In this document: piece by piece, positions 46,091 through 56,855 of the stretch
Numbering within the stretch: the stretch's first letter is position 1
How the letters are laid out: each line of letters begins with the position of its first letter
DNA from: Streptomyces sp. Edi2
GTDB lineage: Bacteria; Actinomycetota; Actinomycetes; Streptomycetales; Streptomycetaceae
Assembly (NCBI RefSeq): GCF_040253635.1
Contig: NZ_JBEJGX010000001.1
Coordinates: 1-64,000, forward strand
DNA length: 64,000 bases
Direction of reading: 5' to 3'
Notes under the pieces: generated by a model
What the model was told of the DNA's origin: nothing
Seen by the model: the letters and a program-made list of their open reading frames with translations, nothing else
The model's database searches: none
Position numbers and translations under genes: made by a program

Positions 46091-47400
46091 TGAAGTTGTC
46101 AAGCCGCTGTAGCCACTGGGGGTGCGACCTCGTAGCACCGTCGGTCACGGATCAGGGCCCACAGGACGTTGACGCGGCGGCGGGCGAGGGCCAGCACGGC
46201 TTGGACGTGCTTCTTTCCCTCGGCGCGTTTGCGGTCGTAGAACTTCCGCGAGTTGGGGTCGCAGCGGACGCTGACGAGCGCGGAGGTGTAGAAGACGCGC
46301 TGGAGTCTTCGGTGGTAGGCGACCGGCCGGTGGAGGTTGCCGCTGACCTTGCCCGAGTCGCGAGGCGCGGGCGCAACGCCGGCGAAGGCCGCCAGGGCGT
46401 CCGGAGAGTCGAAGTCGTCCAGGCTGCCGCCGACAGCGGCGAGGAATTCCGCTCCCAGCACGGCACCGATGCCGGGGACGCTCTGGACTATGTCGGCGAG
46501 TTCGTGCTCGCGAAACCGGCCCTCGATGAGCTTGTCCATCTCGGAGATCTGCTCGTTGAGGGTCATTACCTCCCCGGCCAGGGTGTGGACCAGCTTGGCT
46601 ATGGTCTTCTCCCCGGGGATGGCGGTGTGCTGCCGCTCTGCTGCCTCAACGGCTGCTTCGGCCAGGGATCTTGCGTTGCGGACGGTGCGGTTGGCCAGCC
46701 ACTTGGTCAGCCGTGTGACCCCGGCGCGGCGGATCGAGGCCGGACTCTGGTACCCCGTCAGCAGCTTGAGCGGGCCGGTGTTGGTCACGTCCAGGGCCCG
46801 TTCCAGGGCGGGGAACATGCTCAGCAGGGTGCCGCGCAGGCGGTTCACGGTGCGGGTGCGGTCCTCGACCAGGTCGGCGCGGCGTCCGGTCAGCAGCTTC
46901 AGCTCGATGGCGGCTTCGTCGCCGGGGCGGATGGGCCGCAGGTCGCGGCGCATCCTGGCCTGGTCGGCGATCACGTAGGCGTCGCGGGCGTCGGTCTTGC
47001 CCTCGCCGCGGTAGCCGTCGGAGGCCCGGTTCACCAGCCGGCCGGGCATGTACAGGATCTCCTGGCCGTGTTTGACCAGCAGGGCCAGCAGCAGTGCGGG
47101 TTCTCCGCCGGTCATGTCGATGGCCCAGGTGACCTGACGCCCGTCGGCCAGGTCGAGGACGTCACCGAGCAGTTTCAGCAGCTCGGGCTCGTCGTTGGCG
47201 ACCCGCCGCGACAGCAGTGTTTTGCCGTCGGTGTCCAAGGCGAGGCCGTGGTGGTGGCCCTTGCCGCTGTCGATCCCCGTCCATATCCGGCTCATCGTGC
47301 TCCTGACGTTCGTGTTCGTACTGTTCGTGCCACGGACGACTTCGCCGGCATTGCTCTACGCAGCGACTTGTTCGCACTTCCTAATCGGCGGCCGAGTCGT
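46091..47400 (-). mobile_element. IS110-family insertion sequence
   Basis: A complete IS110-type transposase gene (46099-47295) with short flanks. IS110 elements lack clear inverted repeats, so the ends are approximate. The left end is within ~10 bp of the stop of the 421-aa gene. The non-coding part before the transposase start (47296 to about 47400) is where IS110-group elements carry their bridge RNA. Confidence 0.75.
46099..47295 (-). CDS. IS110-family transposase (DEDD recombinase)
   Basis: ATG at 47295, 398 aa, intact. N-terminal DEDD (RuvC-like) domain: IWTGIDSGKGHHHGLALDTD, VTWAIDMTGGEPALLLALLV and GKTDARDAYVIADQARMRRD provide the acidic residues. C-terminal transposase_20 part: IVQSVPGIGAVLGAEFLAAV and LAAFAGVAPAPRDSGKVSGN with the conserved Ser/Gly region. 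Recombines DNA using a guide RNA in this family. Length is normal, so it may be active. Confidence 0.95.
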   Translation of the reverse strand: MSRIWTGIDSGKGHHHGLALDTDGKTLLSRRVANDEPELLKLLGDVLDLADGRQVTWAIDMTGGEPALLLALLVKHGQEILYMPGRLVNRASDGYRGEGKTDARDAYVIADQARMRRDLRPIRPGDEAAIELKLLTGRRADLVEDRTRTVNRLRGTLLSMFPALERALDVTNTGPLKLLTGYQSPASIRRAGVTRLTKWLANRTVRNARSLAEAAVEAAERQHTAIPGEKTIAKLVHTLAGEVMTLNEQISEMDKLIEGRFREHELADIVQSVPGIGAVLGAEFLAAVGGSLDDFDSPDALAAFAGVAPAPRDSGKVSGNLHRPVAYHRRLQRVFYTSALVSVRCDPNSRKFYDRKRAEGKKHVQAVLALARRRVNVLWALIRDRRCYEVAPPVATAA

Positions 47401-48894: not shown

Positions 48895-48956
48895 AGAGCC
48901 TGCCCGTGTCCGTCGCACGGACCCAGCCCGGCCAAAGTGCGCTGGCGGCGCGGCTC

Positions 48957-50327
48957 TCAGTGACGGTTGCTGAGGAAGTCGCGGGCGTGTTCGTCCAGTT
49001 CGAAGACGCAGGGTAGTCCGCGGGTGCGGAAGCGGGACAGGCTGCGGCGCATGTTGTCCATGGCTTTGCGGGTTCGTCGCGATTGCACGCCGTCCATGTG
49101 GTTCATCGCTCGGCCCCAGGTGGCACATGCCTGCTCGATGCTGCCCTCAGCGGCCTGCATCTCGGCCTGCGCGACGAGGTCCAGGGCGACGATCCGCGGG
49201 TAGGTGCCGGGCGGGCGGCTCCGCGCTGCGGCGCCGTACATCGCCGCGGCCCGCCGCCGGTCACCCAACGTCTCGAACACCTTCGCGGTCCGGCTATGGA
49301 CGGTGGCGGCTGGTGGTCCCCACGACAGCGCCCAGAACGGAACGGTGTCGCCTTCCGCCGCGTCCAGGGCGGTGCTTGCGCGCTCGAGCTCCCGGACGGC
49401 TTCCTTCCGGTGGCCGACGCCTGCGAGGGCGTGTGCGTGGGTGACGGCGAACAGCGCCTCGGTCTGGGCGTCGACCCGTCCGCGGACCTTGTCGACGGCT
49501 GATGCGGCCAGGGACAGGCAGTGCTCCGGTCGGTGCAGTTTCATGCCCTGCTGGGACATGGTCCTCATGACGAACGCGTCGTGCCCGGTGATCTGGGACT
49601 CGCTGGCGAGGGCGTACGACTGGAGGTAGTACCTCTGCGCGAGGCCCTGCTCCCCACCGTCATAAGCTCGCCAGCCGGCCTGGTGAACGCCGACCGCTGC
49701 GGCGGAGAGCATGTGCCGATGGTCGTCCTCGGAGCTGAACCGTCCCCGGCACAGGGTCGCGACGTCGGACATCAGGTACTGCACCAGTGCGGAGCGGCCG
49801 TGTTGGCCGCCGTGGCGTTCGTCCATCACCGCGAACATCGAGATCATGTCGCGCACTGCGGCGACATCAGTATGTCCGACCCGGGCGCCGGCGCGGGCCT
49901 TAGCTGCGCGGGAGGCAATATCGGTGACGTGCTCCAGCGGCAGAACCGCCGCCGCCACCGAGTACGCCGCGCTGGACAGAAAACGTCGACGGTCCAAGTC
50001 GCCCCTCCAGACCGGCATCAGGGCCTCCAGTGGGTCGTCTCCGATGGACAGCCCGACGTCGTCAGTTTCGCAGCCGACCAGCGGGCCCAGGTCGCGCAGG
50101 GTCAGCGGTCGGCCGACCTCGCGGGATAGTGCGACCGCGAGGAATCGGCCCGTGTCGCCCGCCGGCGGCATTCCCGAGATCCAGTGTGCGATGGATGACT
50201 TGCTGGTGCGCAGAACCGTGCCGCATTCGGCGGCCGCCGCCCGGACGGCAGAAGCAAGGGCCGCATAAGTCAGGCCCGATTCGTCGACGAGGTCCTTGAG
50301 CTGGGTGTTCGGCATGCGCGTGGCCAT
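48957..50327 (-). CDS. TPR-type transcriptional regulator, divergent from the lasso operon
   Basis: ATG at 50327 after GAAGAGGTGCC; an in-frame ATG at 50348 has no ribosome site. 456 aa. The N-terminus is an XRE-like HTH (MPNTQLKDLVDESGLTYAAL, LRTSKSSIAHWISGMPP). RRRFLSSAAYSVAAAVLPLE and a long TPR-like helical array follow (DAFVMRTMSQQGMKLHRPEH, CLSLAASAVDKVRGRVDAQT), ending RGLPCVFELDEHARDFLSNR. This is the large Streptomyces HTH-TPR regulator family, of which the window also contains several dead relatives. It shares a 227-bp intergenic region with the lasso precursor, so control of that operon is likely. Confidence 0.8.
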   Translation of the reverse strand: MATRMPNTQLKDLVDESGLTYAALASAVRAAAAECGTVLRTSKSSIAHWISGMPPAGDTGRFLAVALSREVGRPLTLRDLGPLVGCETDDVGLSIGDDPLEALMPVWRGDLDRRRFLSSAAYSVAAAVLPLEHVTDIASRAAKARAGARVGHTDVAAVRDMISMFAVMDERHGGQHGRSALVQYLMSDVATLCRGRFSSEDDHRHMLSAAAVGVHQAGWRAYDGGEQGLAQRYYLQSYALASESQITGHDAFVMRTMSQQGMKLHRPEHCLSLAASAVDKVRGRVDAQTEALFAVTHAHALAGVGHRKEAVRELERASTALDAAEGDTVPFWALSWGPPAATVHSRTAKVFETLGDRRRAAAMYGAAARSRPPGTYPRIVALDLVAQAEMQAAEGSIEQACATWGRAMNHMDGVQSRRTRKAMDNMRRSLSRFRTRGLPCVFELDEHARDFLSNRH

Positions 50328-50359
50328 CGGCACCTCTTCGTTGAACACGTTGAACCACT

Positions 50360-50378
50360 TAGCGTGCCCGACACGCTA
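50360..50378. promoter_or_regulatory. Inverted repeat in the divergent regulator/lasso intergenic region
   Basis: TAGCGTG-cccga-CACGCTA is a perfect 7-bp inverted repeat 12 bp upstream of the regulator's outer start codon, next to two direct GTTGAAC repeats (50344-50356). A probable operator for the regulator and the lasso promoter. Confidence 0.55.
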
Positions 50379-50554
50379 CCGCCGTATCCGTGTCTGCGGT
50401 TGACTGCTGATCAGCCACCAGCCGAGACCTAACGCCCGCTCTGGATACCTGAGTTCGGCGTTTCGGACGAGTGGTGTCTCCTCGGCGCGCAGCTGTTGGA
50501 GCGCCGAGGAACATCCCGCATCAGGTGAAGCACATCTGCGAGAAGGAGAAGAGC

Positions 50555-50731
50555 ATGGGTGAGCAGCCCAAGCAGAAGAAGAATGCTGTCGGCGTCGCCG
50601 GCTCCGTCGCGGCCTACGAGCCGCCGCGCGCGGTGCGGTCCGGGACACTGGTGTCGCTGGCTGAGGGCTCGTACTCGACGGGCCAGAGCGACGACGGTGA
50701 CTACCACACCGTGAAGTGGCAGCAGGGATGA
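50555..50731 (+). CDS. Lasso peptide precursor (A)
   Basis: ATG at 50555 after AGAAGGAGAAGAGC; 58 aa. The leader carries Y21-x-x-P24-x5-G30 (YEPPRAVRSG), the RRE-binding motif of lasso leaders (YxxPxLxxxG, Leu replaced by Ala26). Counting 17 residues from Tyr21, as in known actinobacterial precursors, puts the core start at Gly38. The core would be GSYSTGQSD (ring, Gly1 to Asp9) followed by the tail DGDYHTVKWQQG. Position -2 is Ala, where most lasso leaders have Thr. The stop overlaps the start of the cyclase gene (ATGA). Confidence 0.85.
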   Translation: MGEQPKQKKNAVGVAGSVAAYEPPRAVRSGTLVSLAEGSYSTGQSDDGDYHTVKWQQG

Positions 50732-52566
50732 CATGCACTCTTGCTGAGTGGTTCGCTGTGCTGCCGGGAAACGGCTCGGCAGCACAGCGGGCCACCGCCC
50801 GTTTCGAGGCAACCGACCCCGGCGTCCAGATCCTGGCCCGCCACGAGGGAAGGCCGTGGATCATCGGCCGCTCCACCCGTCCCCTCCTCGCGGTCCACGC
50901 GGCGGGAGTGTCCGCGGCCCTGCTCGGGACGCATGAGTGCGGTGAGCAGGAGCTGTCCGACGCGTTGACCCCGGCTGACCCGGTCGGCACCATCGCGGCG
51001 CTGATGCGCGGGGCGGGCAGCTACCACGCCGTGCTGGCCACCGGGAACAGTACCTGGGTGTGTGGGGACGTGGCCGGGATGCGGCCGGTTTTCCGGGCAC
51101 AGGTCGGCGGTGCGGTGGTGTTCGGGGATCACGCTCGATTGCTGGCTGAGGCCGCCGGCACCGTGCGCATCGACCCCTCGCACCTCGTGATGCACCTGCT
51201 CGGTCCGGTCCCTCCGCTGGCGCTGGCGGAATCCGGCTCCAGCCCCTATGAGGGCGTGCGGGTGGTGCCGCCGGGCAACGTCGGGTACGTCGAGGACGGT
51301 CGTGGCGTGGCGGTGCGGCGGTGGTGGAGTGTCCCCGACGACGAACGTGCTCTGCCCGAAGCGGCGCCGGTGCTGCGGGACGCGCTGCGCCGGGCGGTGG
51401 CCGTGCGCTCCCGCGGGGAGCCGTTGGTGGGCTGCGAGTTGTCCGGAGGTGCCGACAGCACCGCACTGTCCGCCCTCGCCTACGAAGAGGTCGGTGAGCG
51501 GCTGGCCAACTTCACGCGGGCCCCCGCGGACCCGGCCAACGACGACACCGACTGGGCCCGTCTGGTGGCCGCATCTCAGCCCGGTGCCTCACACGAGACT
51601 TTCGAAGTCGGCGCTGTACCGGCTCAGTTCGCTGGCATGGACGCGCCGTTCGCGCTGGACGCACCGTCTCCCTCCGCCGCTAGCCCTCTGCGTTCGGCCT
51701 TCTGGTGGCGTCACGCCGCCGGGGCCGGAGCCAGGACACTGCTGTCGGGCAAGGGTGGAGATGAACTGACGCTCACCGCCCTGCCCTATCTGTCCTACAC
51801 CCGTCGCCGCGATCGACGCACCGCCCGGCAGCATGTGAAGGGTTGGGCCGCTCTGTGGGGCTCGTCGGCGAGGCAAGTCCAGTCGCAGGCCGTGGCGCCG
51901 GAGTCGTATGCGGCGTGGCTCGCCGGGTGCCTCACGCGCCAGGACGAATCCTTCGGGTGGGAAGCCGGCCCGCACGTCCCACCGTGGCTCACCGGGGCGG
52001 CCCGCACGGCGCTGGCCGACGCAGTGAGCACGGCAGCCGCCGCCGTGGAACCGTTGCATGACCGGCCTCACCAGCACACCACGATGGCGGCGATCCGGGC
52101 ACTGGCCCGCTGGAACCGGCTCCAGGCCGATGCCGCCGGCCCGTTCGGTATCCGGCTCGGCTACCCGTACGCCGACCAGCAGGTTATCGAGGCCGCGCTG
52201 TCCGCCCGCGCCGAGGCCCGCACCAGCCCGTATCAGAACAAGCCGCTCCTCACCGCGGCGATGCGCGGCATCGTGCCCGCCGCCTGCCTCGCACGGCGCA
52301 CCAAGGGCGGCTACAGCACCGACACGGTGACCGCGGCCGCCGCCATGCGCCAGACGTTCGCACGCCTGCTGGATGCGGACTGCCGCCTCGCCTCGTACGG
52401 ACTCATTGACGCCGAACGCCTGCGGGCGGCGCTCACCGGATGGGATCGTGCGGACGAGCGCACCGACCTGCTGCTGCATCTGACCATCATGTGCGAGATC
52501 TGGGCCCGCACCGCGGACAACCATCCCCTGCCGACTCTCGATTCCCCTGCGGAGGCACGATGCTGA
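50728..52566 (+). CDS. Lasso peptide cyclase, asparagine-synthetase-like (C)
   Basis: ATG at 50728 overlaps the precursor stop. 612 aa. The N-terminal ~190 residues are a glutaminase-like domain without the catalytic start Cys2 (the protein begins MTC, so the nucleophile position is Thr2). The synthetase domain has the ATP-binding loop CELSGGADSTALS (SGGADS at 239-244) and TLLSGKGGDELTLTALPYLS further on. It adenylates the Asp9 side chain and closes the macrolactam with Gly1. Intact and of the usual length. Confidence 0.9.
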   Translation: MTCTLAEWFAVLPGNGSAAQRATARFEATDPGVQILARHEGRPWIIGRSTRPLLAVHAAGVSAALLGTHECGEQELSDALTPADPVGTIAALMRGAGSYHAVLATGNSTWVCGDVAGMRPVFRAQVGGAVVFGDHARLLAEAAGTVRIDPSHLVMHLLGPVPPLALAESGSSPYEGVRVVPPGNVGYVEDGRGVAVRRWWSVPDDERALPEAAPVLRDALRRAVAVRSRGEPLVGCELSGGADSTALSALAYEEVGERLANFTRAPADPANDDTDWARLVAASQPGASHETFEVGAVPAQFAGMDAPFALDAPSPSAASPLRSAFWWRHAAGAGARTLLSGKGGDELTLTALPYLSYTRRRDRRTARQHVKGWAALWGSSARQVQSQAVAPESYAAWLAGCLTRQDESFGWEAGPHVPPWLTGAARTALADAVSTAAAAVEPLHDRPHQHTTMAAIRALARWNRLQADAAGPFGIRLGYPYADQQVIEAALSARAEARTSPYQNKPLLTAAMRGIVPAACLARRTKGGYSTDTVTAAAAMRQTFARLLDADCRLASYGLIDAERLRAALTGWDRADERTDLLLHLTIMCEIWARTADNHPLPTLDSPAEARC

Positions 52567-52856
52567 CCCTGGCAACCGGAGTGCGCGTGCTGACCGACCC
52601 GTCGACCGGTCACGGCACCCTGGTCAGCGCCGACGGCGACGTGTTCACGCTCAATCCCACCGCGGCAGTGGCCCTGTCCGCGCTCGCAGACGGCGGCACT
52701 GTCGCCCGCGCCGAGGAGGAACTGGCACGTCGCTGGCCCTGTGTTCCCTTTGTCTCGCTGCGCGCAGATCTCGATGCCCTCCTCGGCCAGCTCCAGGAGG
52801 CCGGCGCGGTGGAGCAGTGCCGGGTAGCCGGCTCTTGGGAGGGCACGACACGATGA
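52560..52856 (+). CDS. Lasso RiPP recognition element, PqqD-like (B1)
   Basis: ATG at 52560 overlaps the cyclase stop. 98 aa: VRVLTDPSTGHGTLVSADGD, VFTLNPTAAVALSALADGGT and helical ARAEEELARRWPCVPFVSLR then ADLDALLGQLQEAGAVEQ. 'vlld...g....Ln.ta..il..l..G....e....l' is the PqqD winged-helix pattern. It binds the leader YxxP motif and delivers the precursor to B2 and C. Confidence 0.9.
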   Translation: MLTLATGVRVLTDPSTGHGTLVSADGDVFTLNPTAAVALSALADGGTVARAEEELARRWPCVPFVSLRADLDALLGQLQEAGAVEQCRVAGSWEGTTR

Positions 52857-53284
52857 GCTTCCCCGTCGCTCTGCCGCCCCGAATCCGACTTGGTTTGTGG
52901 CAGCGTGTGCTCGCCCGCGCGGCGGCGGCCCTCGCGCCTCGGATCAGCGCAACCACGCCCCGGCTGAAACGCGCCTTGGCCCGAGCCCAGCACGGGGCTC
53001 GCCCCTCCACGACCGCTGAGGCCGAGCACGCCGTCCTGGCGGTCTGCACCGCCAACCTCCACCTCGGCGGTCGCCGCGCGTGCCTGCCCCGTTCGGTGGC
53101 GGCCCTGTTGTACTGCCGCGCCCACGGCCATACCCCTGCTCTGGTGCTCGGCATCAAGCCCGGCACCACCCAGGTCCACGCCTGGTTGGAGGCTGAAGGC
53201 CGACCCGCCGGGGAACCGAGCGACCCGACCCGTACCTACACACCCCTCACCCGCTACAGCCCCCAGGAGAACACACACCGATGA
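52853..53284 (+). CDS. Lasso leader peptidase, transglutaminase-like (B2)
   Basis: ATG at 52853 overlaps the B1 stop. 143 aa. Catalytic Cys77 lies in GGRRACLPRSVAALLYCRAH and His109 in TTQVHAWLEAEG, the Cys-His dyad arrangement of lasso B2 proteases; an acidic partner follows at Glu113. It removes the leader before Gly38. The N-terminus has a helical basic part. Intact. Confidence 0.9.
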   Translation: MSFPVALPPRIRLGLWQRVLARAAAALAPRISATTPRLKRALARAQHGARPSTTAEAEHAVLAVCTANLHLGGRRACLPRSVAALLYCRAHGHTPALVLGIKPGTTQVHAWLEAEGRPAGEPSDPTRTYTPLTRYSPQENTHR

Positions 53285-54423
53285 CCGCAATCCTCGACTG
53301 GGCCCCCAAGGCCCAAGCACTCGCCGCCGAGCTGCGGGCGAAGAACGCCATCCGCTCGGAGACGGTGGCCGCGGCCATCGAAGCAGTGCCCCGGCACATG
53401 TTCATCGCCGGGCACTACGCCGCCGGTCAGCACACGAAGATCGACCCCGAACAGCCCACCGAGGACCTGCTCCGCCTCGCCTACGCCGACCGCGGCATCA
53501 TGACCCACACCCCCGCCGACGCTGCCGGTGGCTTCTCCAGCACCTCGCAGCCCTCCATCGTCGCCAAGATGCTGGAAGCCGCAGGGCTGCGGCCCGGCAC
53601 GAAGGTCCTGGAGATCGGCGCCGGGACCGGATGGAACGCGGCGCTGATCGCGCAGATCACCGGTACCAGCGTCCACACCGTCGAAGCGTCCCCTCTCGTC
53701 GCCGCCGAAGCCCGAGAAGCCCTCGCCCGCACAGACAGCCAGCACGTCACCGTGCATACCGGGGACGGCTACCTCGGGCATCCGGAAGACGGCCCCTACG
53801 ATCTGATCCTCGTTACGTGCGGCATCGCAGGGATCCCCCCGGCTTGGGTCGAGCAACTCGCCTCAGGCGGTGCCATCCTCGCCCCGGTCGCGCACGGCGG
53901 CCTCCACCCCCTGCTCCGCGTCACCCGCACCGGCGACGGCATGCTCGCCGGACAGCTGATGGCCAACGCCGACTTTATGAATGCCACCGGGCCTCTCTAC
54001 GCCGGAGCCACCACCGCACCGGCCACCCGCGGACAACACCTCCCCGCCCCTCTCCCCTCCGCCGCCCGCCCCCACCCCATCCCGACGAGCCTGGACCCCC
54101 GCGGCTCCTACCTCGACCTGTGGATGCACCTGGCGGCCCGTGACACACGTACCACCTGCGCCGGCGCCGAGGGCACCAACGACTACACCGGATGCGCGCT
54201 CGTCGAAGAGGACACCGCGGTGTTCGTCCAGCCCGGTGGGCTCCACCCCACACCCGGCCCCACAGCACAGGCCCTTGCCGACCAGGTGGAGCAGCACGTC
54301 ACAGAATGGGACCACGATGGCCGCCCCGGGCTCACTGCCTGGTCATGCTCGCTCACCCCCGCAGGAACAGCGGAACACCCTCTGCTCGCTCCGGCCAACT
54401 GGGTATCTCAGGCCAACAGCTGA
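53281..54423 (+). CDS. Protein-isoaspartate O-methyltransferase-like lasso tailoring enzyme (M)
   Basis: ATG at 53281 overlaps the B2 stop. 380 aa. PIMT family marks: AAAIEAVPRHMFI near residue 38, SSTSQPSIVAKMLEAAGL at 86-103, SAM motif I VLEIGAGTGWNAALIAQITG at 109-128, and LILVTCGIAGIPPAWVEQLA. The C-terminal ~130 residues are an extra domain (YLDLWMHLAARDTRTTCAGA) not found in housekeeping PIMT. By precedent of lihuanodin and cellulonodin-2, such enzymes methylate an Asp side chain of the threaded lasso, which then cyclises to aspartimide. Last gene of the operon. Confidence 0.85.
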   Translation: MTAILDWAPKAQALAAELRAKNAIRSETVAAAIEAVPRHMFIAGHYAAGQHTKIDPEQPTEDLLRLAYADRGIMTHTPADAAGGFSSTSQPSIVAKMLEAAGLRPGTKVLEIGAGTGWNAALIAQITGTSVHTVEASPLVAAEAREALARTDSQHVTVHTGDGYLGHPEDGPYDLILVTCGIAGIPPAWVEQLASGGAILAPVAHGGLHPLLRVTRTGDGMLAGQLMANADFMNATGPLYAGATTAPATRGQHLPAPLPSAARPHPIPTSLDPRGSYLDLWMHLAARDTRTTCAGAEGTNDYTGCALVEEDTAVFVQPGGLHPTPGPTAQALADQVEQHVTEWDHDGRPGLTAWSCSLTPAGTAEHPLLAPANWVSQANS

Positions 54424-54945
54424 CCCGCAAGTCACCGTCCGGTGCCCCTGGCGTGCTCGCGCGGCGCGACAGGCTAGCGCGATGAAGCAGCACGCTGCAC
54501 AAGCGCGCTCATCCAGCGTGACCAAGCGACTCGACGACCGGACGCGCTGCAGGTCATGCCGCAGCAACGCGCCGGACGTTCGAGGCTGCGACCTGGTCTG
54601 GTGAGCGCGCCGGGTTGGCGCGGTTGGTGGGCAAGTTCCGGGGCGCGGGGTGAGAGCGGCCTCGGGCAGCGCTGCTGGCGGGGGCAGCGGCCGGCGCAAG
54701 CGCTTTCCCGGGACCGAGCCCTCCGTTCGAGGGAATCTGGCCCGGTCGTCTCTGATCGGTGCGGCGGCTTGCCCTAGGGTGAGCCCAGCAGCTGACGCTG
54801 CGGGGCCTTCCAGGGTCCTTGCCGACACACTTCCAAAACCCGGCCCGGGGTGTGGCAGAAGCCCGGTGAGCGGGAATGGCATGAACTGTCGTGTGTCGTC
54901 ATCTTCTGAGTCGCCGGCCGCCGGGAGCCGCCTCTCGGAGGCGCC
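54424..54945. other. No gene seen after the lasso operon
   Basis: No exporter gene is present. A minus-strand fragment RHDLQRVRSSSRLVTLDERA (near 54490-54570) may be an old gene piece. The promoter of the 54946 gene should lie in its last 150 bp. Confidence 0.4.
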
Positions 54946-55688: not shown

Positions 55689-56855
55689 TCACGCTGCCAG
55701 CGTGACGGAGGATTCTTCTTGGCGATCGGCGGTGTGCCGGTCGAGTCTGGCCAGCAGATCGTCCAGGTCGGTGGTGGTGAACTTCCACTGGAACGGCTGT
55801 GCTGTGGCGTTGTAGCGGTCTTCGAATGCTCGGAGCCGATCCCTGACCTGGTCGAGGTCGGTGAAGTCGTTGGGCGTCACGATCTTGCGCTGCACGATGG
55901 AGAAGTAGATCTCCACCTGGTTCAGCCAGGAGGCGTGGACCGGGGTGTGCACGAGCACCGCGTTCGGGAATGCGGCGGTGAGCCTGTCGGCGGCCTTCTT
56001 GCCGCGGTGGGAGGAGCCGTTGTCGACGATCCAGAACACGCGCTTCGCACCGGCGTAGGGCTCTTGGGCCATGACGTGGGTGACCAGGTTCATGAACGGG
56101 TCGATGCCGGTACGTGGCTCGGTGCGGCCGGACACCTTCGCGGCGTGGACGTCGTAGGCGGCCAGATAGGCCAGGGCGCCGCCGCGGCCGTAGGTGTGGT
56201 TGACGCGCATCGCTCTCGCCTGGCCGGGGGCGAGGGTTGGGTGGCAGCGGCAGCGGGCCTGGACAGACGTCTTCTCGTCCGCGCTGATGACGTACTCGTC
56301 CTCGCCGAGCGGGGTGCCTTCCCAGGTGCGGGCGTACAGGTCCAGCACGCGCTGGGCCTTGGCGCGGAAGTCGGGGTCGGTGATGAAGATCCATGAGCGG
56401 TACTGCCAAGGCTTGAGCACGTCCCGGTCCAGCCAGCGGCGGACGGTGGAGGCCGACACGAACGTGGCGATGCCCCGGGCTATCGCCTCCCGGGCCAGCT
56501 CGGGCGCTGACCAGCGTGACAGCGGCGTACCGGCCTCGGCGGGTAACCGGCAGGCCAGAGCCTTGACTTCGACCACCTGCAGCGCGGTGAACGCCGGCGG
56601 GCGACCCGAGCGATCACGGTCGCCCAGGCCGCCCAGGCCCTGGTCGGCGAACCGACCGCGCCAGCACCGGACCGTGTCCAGGTGCAGGCCGGTCTCCCGG
56701 GCGATGCGCGCGTTGGAGCGTCCGCGTGCGGCCTGCAGGACGATCTGCGCGCGCATCCGCAGCCGGTACTCGGTCTTGTGGCCGTAGGCCATCAGTTTCA
56801 GCCGCCCGCGCTCGGCGGCACGCAAGGTGATCGGACGGGCAGCGGCAACAGGCAA
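55689..56855 (-). CDS. IS630-family transposase
   Basis: 388 aa, intact. N-terminal HTH: MRAQIVLQAARGRSNARIAR then ETGLHLDTVRCWRGRFADQG, GLGDRDRSGRPPAF. DDE catalytic domain: YVISADEKTSVQARCRC (first Asp), AKRVFWIVDNGSSHRGKKAA (second Asp) and HASWLNQVEIYFSIVQRKIV (Glu). This is the classic IS630 DDE pattern with TA target preference. Probably active. Confidence 0.95.
   Translation of the reverse strand: MPVAAARPITLRAAERGRLKLMAYGHKTEYRLRMRAQIVLQAARGRSNARIARETGLHLDTVRCWRGRFADQGLGGLGDRDRSGRPPAFTALQVVEVKALACRLPAEAGTPLSRWSAPELAREAIARGIATFVSASTVRRWLDRDVLKPWQYRSWIFITDPDFRAKAQRVLDLYARTWEGTPLGEDEYVISADEKTSVQARCRCHPTLAPGQARAMRVNHTYGRGGALAYLAAYDVHAAKVSGRTEPRTGIDPFMNLVTHVMAQEPYAGAKRVFWIVDNGSSHRGKKAADRLTAAFPNAVLVHTPVHASWLNQVEIYFSIVQRKIVTPNDFTDLDQVRDRLRAFEDRYNATAQPFQWKFTTTDLDDLLARLDRHTADRQEESSVTLAA

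Follow-up and report, generated by a model that had tools for sequence, protein, structure and literature searches.

A predicted group 2 lassimiditide cassette with a divergent NsdA-family regulator in Streptomyces sp. Edi2

What does a lasso peptide operon make when it ends in a gene resembling protein isoaspartate methyltransferases (PIMTs), and what controls it? The question is raised by a locus in a 64,000-nucleotide stretch of Streptomyces sp. Edi2 (positions 1 to 64,000 of contig NZ_JBEJGX010000001.1; hereafter the window), in which genes for a precursor peptide (A), a cyclase (C), a leader-binding protein (B1), a leader protease (B2) and a methyltransferase (M) lie divergent from a regulatory gene (R). 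Our analysis leads to the reading, to which we assign a probability of roughly 0.72, that the locus is a cassette for a group 2 lassimiditide, namely a Gly1-Asp9 lasso peptide on which M would act at Asp10 via an aspartimide, with R controlling A and itself. It builds on the identities of the genes, their order and the conservation of residues, from which we predict how the precursor is cleaved, closed into a ring and modified, at which residue, and how the locus is regulated. The features are as follows.

48953-54403: conserved cassette R-A-C-B1-B2-M, 91.2% identical to genome G843, with differing flanks
48957-50327, minus strand: R, NsdA-family TPR-like regulator, 456 residues (NF053720 and homologue alignment)
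50328-50554: divergent intergenic region between R and A (sequence and alignments with other R loci)
50340-50355: putative R operator GTTGAAC-ac-GTTGAAC, a direct repeat with a 9-bp period
50555-50731, plus strand: A, precursor peptide, 58 residues (open reading frame; four database homologues besides A itself)
50666-50728, plus strand: predicted core GSYSTGQSDDGDYHTVKWQQG (register from 14 precursors, window included)
50690-50692, plus strand: codon of Asp9, predicted ring residue
50693-50695, plus strand: codon of Asp10, predicted to be modified
50699-50701, plus strand: codon of Asp12
50728-52566, plus strand: C, asparagine-synthase-like lasso cyclase (Pfam, NCBIfam, SGGADS, GKGGDE)
52560-52856, plus strand: B1, PqqD-type leader-binding protein (PF05402)
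52853-53284, plus strand: B2, leader protease with Cys77 and His109 (NF033537)
53281-54423, plus strand: M, PIMT-like O-methyltransferase of the type found with ribosomally synthesized and post-translationally modified peptides (RiPPs), with a C-terminal domain and WxxxGxP at residues 343-349 (PF01135, motif, model)

The five genes A-C-B1-B2-M, called as open reading frames on the plus strand, overlap successively by 4, 7, 4 and 4 bases, which confirms the order with overlapping starts and stops that an earlier reading of the window (the original prediction) had described; for C, GTG 50716 is an alternative upstream start. Since the gene order also recurs in other genomes, the operon represents more than a chance arrangement. 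The gene set of a lasso cluster is present, comprising a precursor with a YxxP leader motif (Y21-E-P-P24), an asparagine-synthase-like C, a PqqD-type B1 and a Cys/His protease B2. C belongs to the Asn_synthase family of Pfam and carries SGGADS from residue 239 and GKGGDE from residue 341. B1 exceeds the cut-off of PF05402 (PqqD; 35.5 bits, cut-off 23.4) and B2 that of the lasso protease model NF033537 (73 bits, cut-off 33), with the catalytic residues Cys77 in RRACLPRS and His109 in VHAWLE, so that every motif named in the original prediction (YxxP, SGGADS, PqqD fold, Cys77/His109) was recovered. Pfam showed no transporter beside the locus, in agreement with the earlier remark that no exporter adjoins it; none of the 13 other mechanically called reading frames nearby, some of which are perhaps not genes, had a match.

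The sole block common to 84 kb here and 50 kb of genome G843 extends from 48953 to 54403 with 91.2% identity (blastn, E<=1e-20) and spans the stop codon of R to the stop codon of M. The right flank (9.5 kb) gave only short matches to all of G843, the longest of about 230 bases at 71%, and the left flank, compared with the 50 kb only, was likewise unmatched. Because the block covers R to M between unmatched flanks, we regard R to M as one cassette. Two transposase genes are located about 1.3-1.7 kb beyond either cassette end, one of the IS110 type (46099-47295) and one with DDE_3/HTH domains (55689-56855; Pfam), which we take to be IS630-like. The contig that begins with the window is 328,740 bases long, another contig of the genome measures 9.1 Mb, and two related loci are found on named plasmids; a plasmid location of the locus is likely. 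Compared with the related locus L037, the ratio of non-synonymous to synonymous substitution rates (dN/dS) is about 0.16-0.35 for C, B2, M and R. The locus is probably working, and as far as its sequence can tell, the core, the modification site and the control region are better defined than before.

The precursor core and its conserved acids

The core GSYSTGQSDDGDYHTVKWQQG very probably comprises 21 residues with a ring between Gly1 and Asp9. Fourteen precursors, i.e. those of the window, of ten related loci (L013, L019-L022, L034, L036-L039) and three database proteins whose genomic context was unseen (P0123-P0125), line up gap-free from the Tyr of YxxP. Core position 1 is Gly in 13 of them and Ala in one, and Ser is present at position 4 in 13/14 and at position 8 in 13/14. 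The ring of lasso peptides is usually closed at positions 7-9. Asp9 and Asp10 occur in all 14 precursors, no acid is found at position 8 and a single one at position 7 (Glu, P0123); as the sole acid common to all at the ring positions, Asp9 is the predicted ring residue. Asp10, the first residue outside the ring, is the next acid and is followed by a small residue (Gly in 8, Ser in 5, Ala in 1), which makes it the best candidate for M and the likeliest modified residue. The Asp9-Asp10 pair is absent from the four distinct precursors of six plasmid loci that have a related C and no M in view; these six, examined out of 13 such C matches, are annotated as keywimysin-, chaxapeptin- and lariatin-type, one being without type.

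Two other registers were rejected. A core start after GTL (VSLAEGSYST...) would leave no acid at ring positions 7-9, and a start at GQSDDGD with an Asp7 ring is at odds with the relatives that have Thr at leader position -2 (L019-L022, L034, L036), which align Gly38 as residue 1. Six of the 16 loci around M relatives were dropped from the precursor set, namely L011 and L012 (truncated C, A not found), L033 (masked stretch, partial C), L035 (neither C nor B2 found within 8.5 kb), L040 (a lanthipeptide cluster) and L051 (short M, no lasso genes). The original prediction had not recognised the core, and four motif strings from these cores were unmatched in open-licence main texts.

The pattern of acids fits a group already delineated. 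In the portion of PMC10787088 on which we draw, Kim et al. 2023 describe 67 lasso clusters, one of whose two groups has in common an Asp that is highly conserved within the putative loop, and the corresponding sections of PMC13001092 predict that group 2 lassimiditides are modified in the loop. The locus fits as a member of the uncharacterised group 2 predicted by Kim et al. 2023, where we infer the correspondence of the motifs; the group 1 motif D(T/S)AD at core positions 6-9 is absent from the window core, which has G-Q-S-D there.

The methyltransferase and the weighing of the reading

M contains a PCMT domain (PF01135) above the Pfam cut-off followed by a C-terminal extension, in accordance with the PIMT-like enzyme originally proposed. 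It scores below the housekeeping PIMT equivalog cut-offs of NCBIfam (142 vs 188 and 109 vs 159 bits), and its best NCBIfam matches are also below cut-off (TIGR04188, 196/380 bits; TIGR04364, 172/320 bits). A C-terminal domain together with WxxxGxP is given as a feature of RiPP PIMTs in the sections of PMC13001092 consulted, and M has both. The AlphaFold model of M (pLDDT 94.7) finds its best Foldseek match in 1DL5, a PIMT of Thermotoga that has a C-terminal domain (over 364 columns, with a root-mean-square deviation of 9.2 and a TM-score, by query length, of 0.53), the latter two values indicating that the domains are placed differently in the two proteins; other PIMTs match the core only. The genome harbors ten other PIMT-like stretches; among the nine that were scored, TIGR04188 is the sole NCBIfam model at E<=1e-40, above its cut-off in L003 alone.

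At the thresholds used, relatives of M are rare. They were found in 3/295 genomes of the genus, 6/394 of the family, 5/394 of the class and 1/396 of the phylum, and in further sets in 3/35 of the G311 family, 1/100 of the G675 relatives and 5/150 of the G801 relatives; these counts include the query genome where it is in the set, and the queries (M or a relative of M) and E limits differ between sets. One search with M scored 7998 candidates sharing most words and listed the best 120 of 138 matches. In ten of the 16 loci around M relatives (the ten of the precursor set), the genes A, C, B2 and M are ordered as in the window, B1 being seen by annotation or tblastn in some of them only; C of L034 appears in two pieces by tblastn, perhaps owing to a frameshift. 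The 16-locus set leaves out three Ancylobacter loci (L014-L016; 33-34% over part of M) and nine loci of the genome itself. Two loci appear decayed (L012:5967-8313 and L011:7063-8286), lacking A and the beginning of C and retaining B1, B2 and M; in L012 only 7 bases separate the match to R residue 35 from that to C residue 259.

In the M tree, which was rooted at the midpoint for drawing only, M falls into a 27-row clade with 13 lasso-linked rows and one lanthipeptide row (L040), most others being of unseen context. The tree leaves out L005 and has among its rows no short housekeeping PIMT and neither of the known group 1 enzymes TceM and LihM. The 13 group 2 rows are split from the three group 1 type rows with support of 100/100 (32 ungrouped rows not counted), and under the midpoint root the enzyme of L040 branches closer to group 2 than the group 1 enzymes do. 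L040 itself is a Streptomycetaceae lanthipeptide cluster with LanB, LanC and an ABC transporter. The Actinoalloteichus protein P0048 is placed inside the M clade, and another strain of this genus is named as a probable group 2 holder in the part of PMC13001092 used here. In the C tree, groups 1 and 2 are located on the same side of the branch from five M-less C proteins (98/95). Separate recruitment of PIMTs by the two groups is not claimed: the approximately unbiased test does not reject a single clade of both groups (p 0.089), and the group 1 branch is long.

These data bear on two other roles for M. It is most improbable that M is a general repair PIMT at the locus by accident, as its PCMT domain might suggest, given the scores below the equivalog cut-offs, the 4-base overlap with B2, the position directly after B2 in ten related loci too and the ten other PIMT-like places of the genome. 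A grouping with housekeeping PIMTs, which the original prediction had named as evidence to the contrary, was not seen among these scores or in the tree, which includes no short housekeeping PIMT and in which M joins the 13 lasso-linked rows. Methylation of the C-terminal carboxylate, as by StspM of a lassomycin-like cluster, would explain an O-methyltransferase gene adjoining lasso genes and is very unlikely: M is PIMT-like, whereas StspM was modelled on mitomycin-7-O-methyltransferase according to PMC9266682, and the C-terminal residues of the precursors vary (G, Q, H, A, P, S), with Asp9-Asp10 constant.

The preferred reading is that B1 would deliver the leader to B2, which would cleave ahead of Gly38 of A. 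C would bond the amine of Gly1, released by this cut, to the side chain of Asp9, so that the 21 residues of the core become threaded as a lasso. M would next methylate the Asp10 side chain, directly past the ring. The backbone nitrogen of Gly11 could then displace methanol, forming an aspartimide (-18 Da) that may persist or open to isoaspartate (isoAsp). The calculated monoisotopic masses are 2296.962 for the lasso, 2310.978 for its methyl ester and 2278.952 for the aspartimide. Compatible with this, and a serious possibility that we place somewhat below even odds, is a loop isoAsp (or a mixture) as the end product with the aspartimide as a transient; outside the ring, isoAsp would neither widen the ring nor unthread it, in contrast to lihuanodin. 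Residue 11 is G/S/A and differs from the Thr by which hydrolysis in lihuanodin is directed back to Asp (PMC13001092, in the passages cited), and isoAsp is established for a PIMT-modified lanthipeptide according to PMC10787088, while the sequence does not tell how long an aspartimide would last in the loop of a folded lasso.

Several observations weigh against the Gly1-Asp9 lasso modified at Asp10. Asp12 is retained in 13/14 precursors and thus nearly as conserved as Asp10; the one precursor that separates the two acids, the divergent L039, was spotted by eye once the pattern search had failed. Action of M on Asp12 (D12-Y13) of the same lasso is nevertheless unlikely, because L039 has lost Asp12 yet keeps M and Asp10, and because residue 13 is Y/A/S, by general knowledge less aspartimide-prone than G/S/A after Asp10. 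Three group 1 type precursors (cores GTQNFDTADDTQYKNA, GTNNFDTADDTQYKNA and GTNNFDHADDTEYKNA) likewise have Asp10, which may therefore be kept for another reason, and the L034 core also has Asp at position 6. The loci were found via searches with M, so that the link between precursor motif and M carries an ascertainment bias. Lasso leaders usually have Thr at position -2, a preference that is not strictly defining; A has Ala36, and since 8 of the 14 precursors have Ala there and the other 6 have Thr, this group appears to tolerate Ala. WxxxGxP is missing in L034 and L039 (present in 11/13 group 2 rows) and occurs in 7/9 other PIMT-like proteins of this genome, so it was discarded as a lasso-specific mark. 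C reaches 241 bits with its best NCBIfam model NF033561 (albusnodin/ikarugamycin cyclase; cut-off 300) and hence stays outside that family, and B1 is below the cut-off of NF033530 (42.7 bits, cut-off 70). Compared with L037, finally, A shows two synonymous and eight non-synonymous changes, and dN/dS of B1 is about 0.5.

The divergent regulator and its putative operator

R matches the NsdA-family model NF053720 with 376 bits (cut-off 75). The divergent regulator of the original prediction is thereby placed in a family and is not special to this locus, as plasmid regulators of this family are seen beside several operon types. It very probably starts at ATG 50327 and not at GTG 50348, because the alignment with each of the 11 full-length annotated plasmid homologues begins at that Met; for the unannotated R frames of L037 and L013 it begins at residues 1 and 2. 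GTG 50348 also fits worse because the putative operator sits between both starts and would be crossed by the longer frame.

A DNA search with 48900-54500 against plasmids gave 43 records, and 17 among the best 20 that were listed matched R; 13 of the 17 were opened. In three of these loci (L058, L059, L071; DTAD or DHAD cores) a lasso cluster that includes an M-type gene lies divergent from R, in five a fumarylacetoacetate hydrolase/aldolase/ketosynthase operon does, and in the remaining five R has other neighbours or is itself broken (L065, L067, L069, L070, L072). The second type is conserved in the Streptomyces plasmid loci L062, L063, L064, L066 and L068, where the operon (fumarylacetoacetate hydrolase, acetaldehyde dehydrogenase, dmpG, ketosynthase III, acyl carrier protein, CoA ester lyase) lies divergent from R with a TATAC-N4-TATAC repeat. 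On plasmid pFRL6 (L070:4786-10082), the genes divergent from an R relative encode a small peptide, an asparagine-synthase-like protein and an ABC protein; the peptide lacks YxxP and is no obvious lasso precursor. The R tree (16 rows) unites the window and L037 with L058 (group 1 type lasso) and L067 (sugar-type genes; 100/100), L013 (group 2) with L071 (group 1 type) and L070 (99/98), and L012 (group 2) with L059 (group 1 type) and others (100/99). We conclude from this mixture of partner types that R and its partners have undergone exchange. A text search found no paper linking a lasso peptide with NsdA.

The repeat TATAC-N4-TATAC occurs once per locus in 12/12 other intact R loci, some 11-25 bases ahead of the start of R, and is absent from the window even with one mismatch. 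At the corresponding place, the window and L037 have GTTGAAC-ac-GTTGAAC, the sole match on both strands of the 64 kb. A repeat with a 9-bp period as such was dismissed as unremarkable, as 755/7000 shuffled regions have one; the TATAC-N4-TATAC pattern was picked after viewing the alignment of R loci, and only the specific recurrence was counted as remarkable. The recurring upstream repeat makes it plausible that R regulates itself and the divergent operon via the putative operator, and in the window R would control A and R itself from the intergenic direct repeat.

That R belongs to the flank and not to the lasso cassette seems doubtful. R is found beside other operons or broken genes in 10/13 plasmid loci and was not found within the retrieved stretch of 10/14 group 2 lasso loci; against this, the identity block with G843 includes R, from its stop codon to that of M, and R adjoins lasso and M genes in L012, L013, L037, L058, L059 and L071. 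More tentatively, and short of an even chance, residue 10 in the loop of group 2 lassimiditides may carry an aspartimide or isoAsp, and R may form, with its operator, a portable module swapped among group 1 and group 2 lasso cassettes and unrelated operons on Streptomyces plasmids. If so, isoAsp opening at residue 10 could not unthread the ring, a single signal would activate different small-molecule pathways, and the joint change of both repeat units in the window lineage, from the TATAC to the GTTGAAC type, would look like insulation from relatives. The exchanged regulator with its shared upstream repeat would offer a handle for waking silent plasmid-borne pathways, and the compact locus with its assigned core a concrete test of the loop aspartimide, its isoAsp end state and the enzyme's need for a threaded shape.

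Comparison with known systems

Two lassimiditides are listed as characterised in the sections of PMC13001092 used here, neither of them in group 2, and each carries its modification at Asp6 of the ring motif DTAD; a loop modification would differ from both. The original prediction had likened the locus to lihuanodin and cellulonodin-2. The likeness holds for a lasso operon with a RiPP-type PIMT carrying a C-terminal WxxxGxP and for a ring closed at Asp9; it ends with the core, since both peptides belong to group 1 with their modified Asp6 in DTAD, whereas the window core has neither Asp6 nor this motif. M of the group 1 type plasmid loci L058, L059 and L071 is about 30% identical to M of the window over 117-152 columns. 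The precursor of one Streptomyces plasmid (L071:6305-6427), which adjoins an M-type gene, has DHAD with His7 and not DTAD or DSAD; position 7 of the group 1 motif is given as Thr or Ser only in the passages of PMC13001092 cited.

More distant parallels are found in other systems. Albusnodin is acetylated at Lys10 (PMC9266682, in the portion cited). The locus shares with its cluster a C nearest to the albusnodin/ikarugamycin model and a modification at residue 10 (predicted here), and differs from it in a PIMT-like gene, no recognised acetyltransferase and a C below the model cut-off. The PIMTs of graspetides (TIGR04188) and FxLD lanthipeptides (TIGR04364) resemble M in having a PIMT core and a C-terminal domain, but M is below both cut-offs and its neighbours are lasso genes. 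R is well over the cut-off of the NsdA family and far under those of the NsdA (64/830) and NsdB (76/700) equivalogs. The closest correspondence is with the group 2 lassimiditides, with which the locus shares a PIMT-like M in a lasso operon, a conserved Asp in the predicted loop (Asp10, 14/14) and the absence of a ring DTAD.

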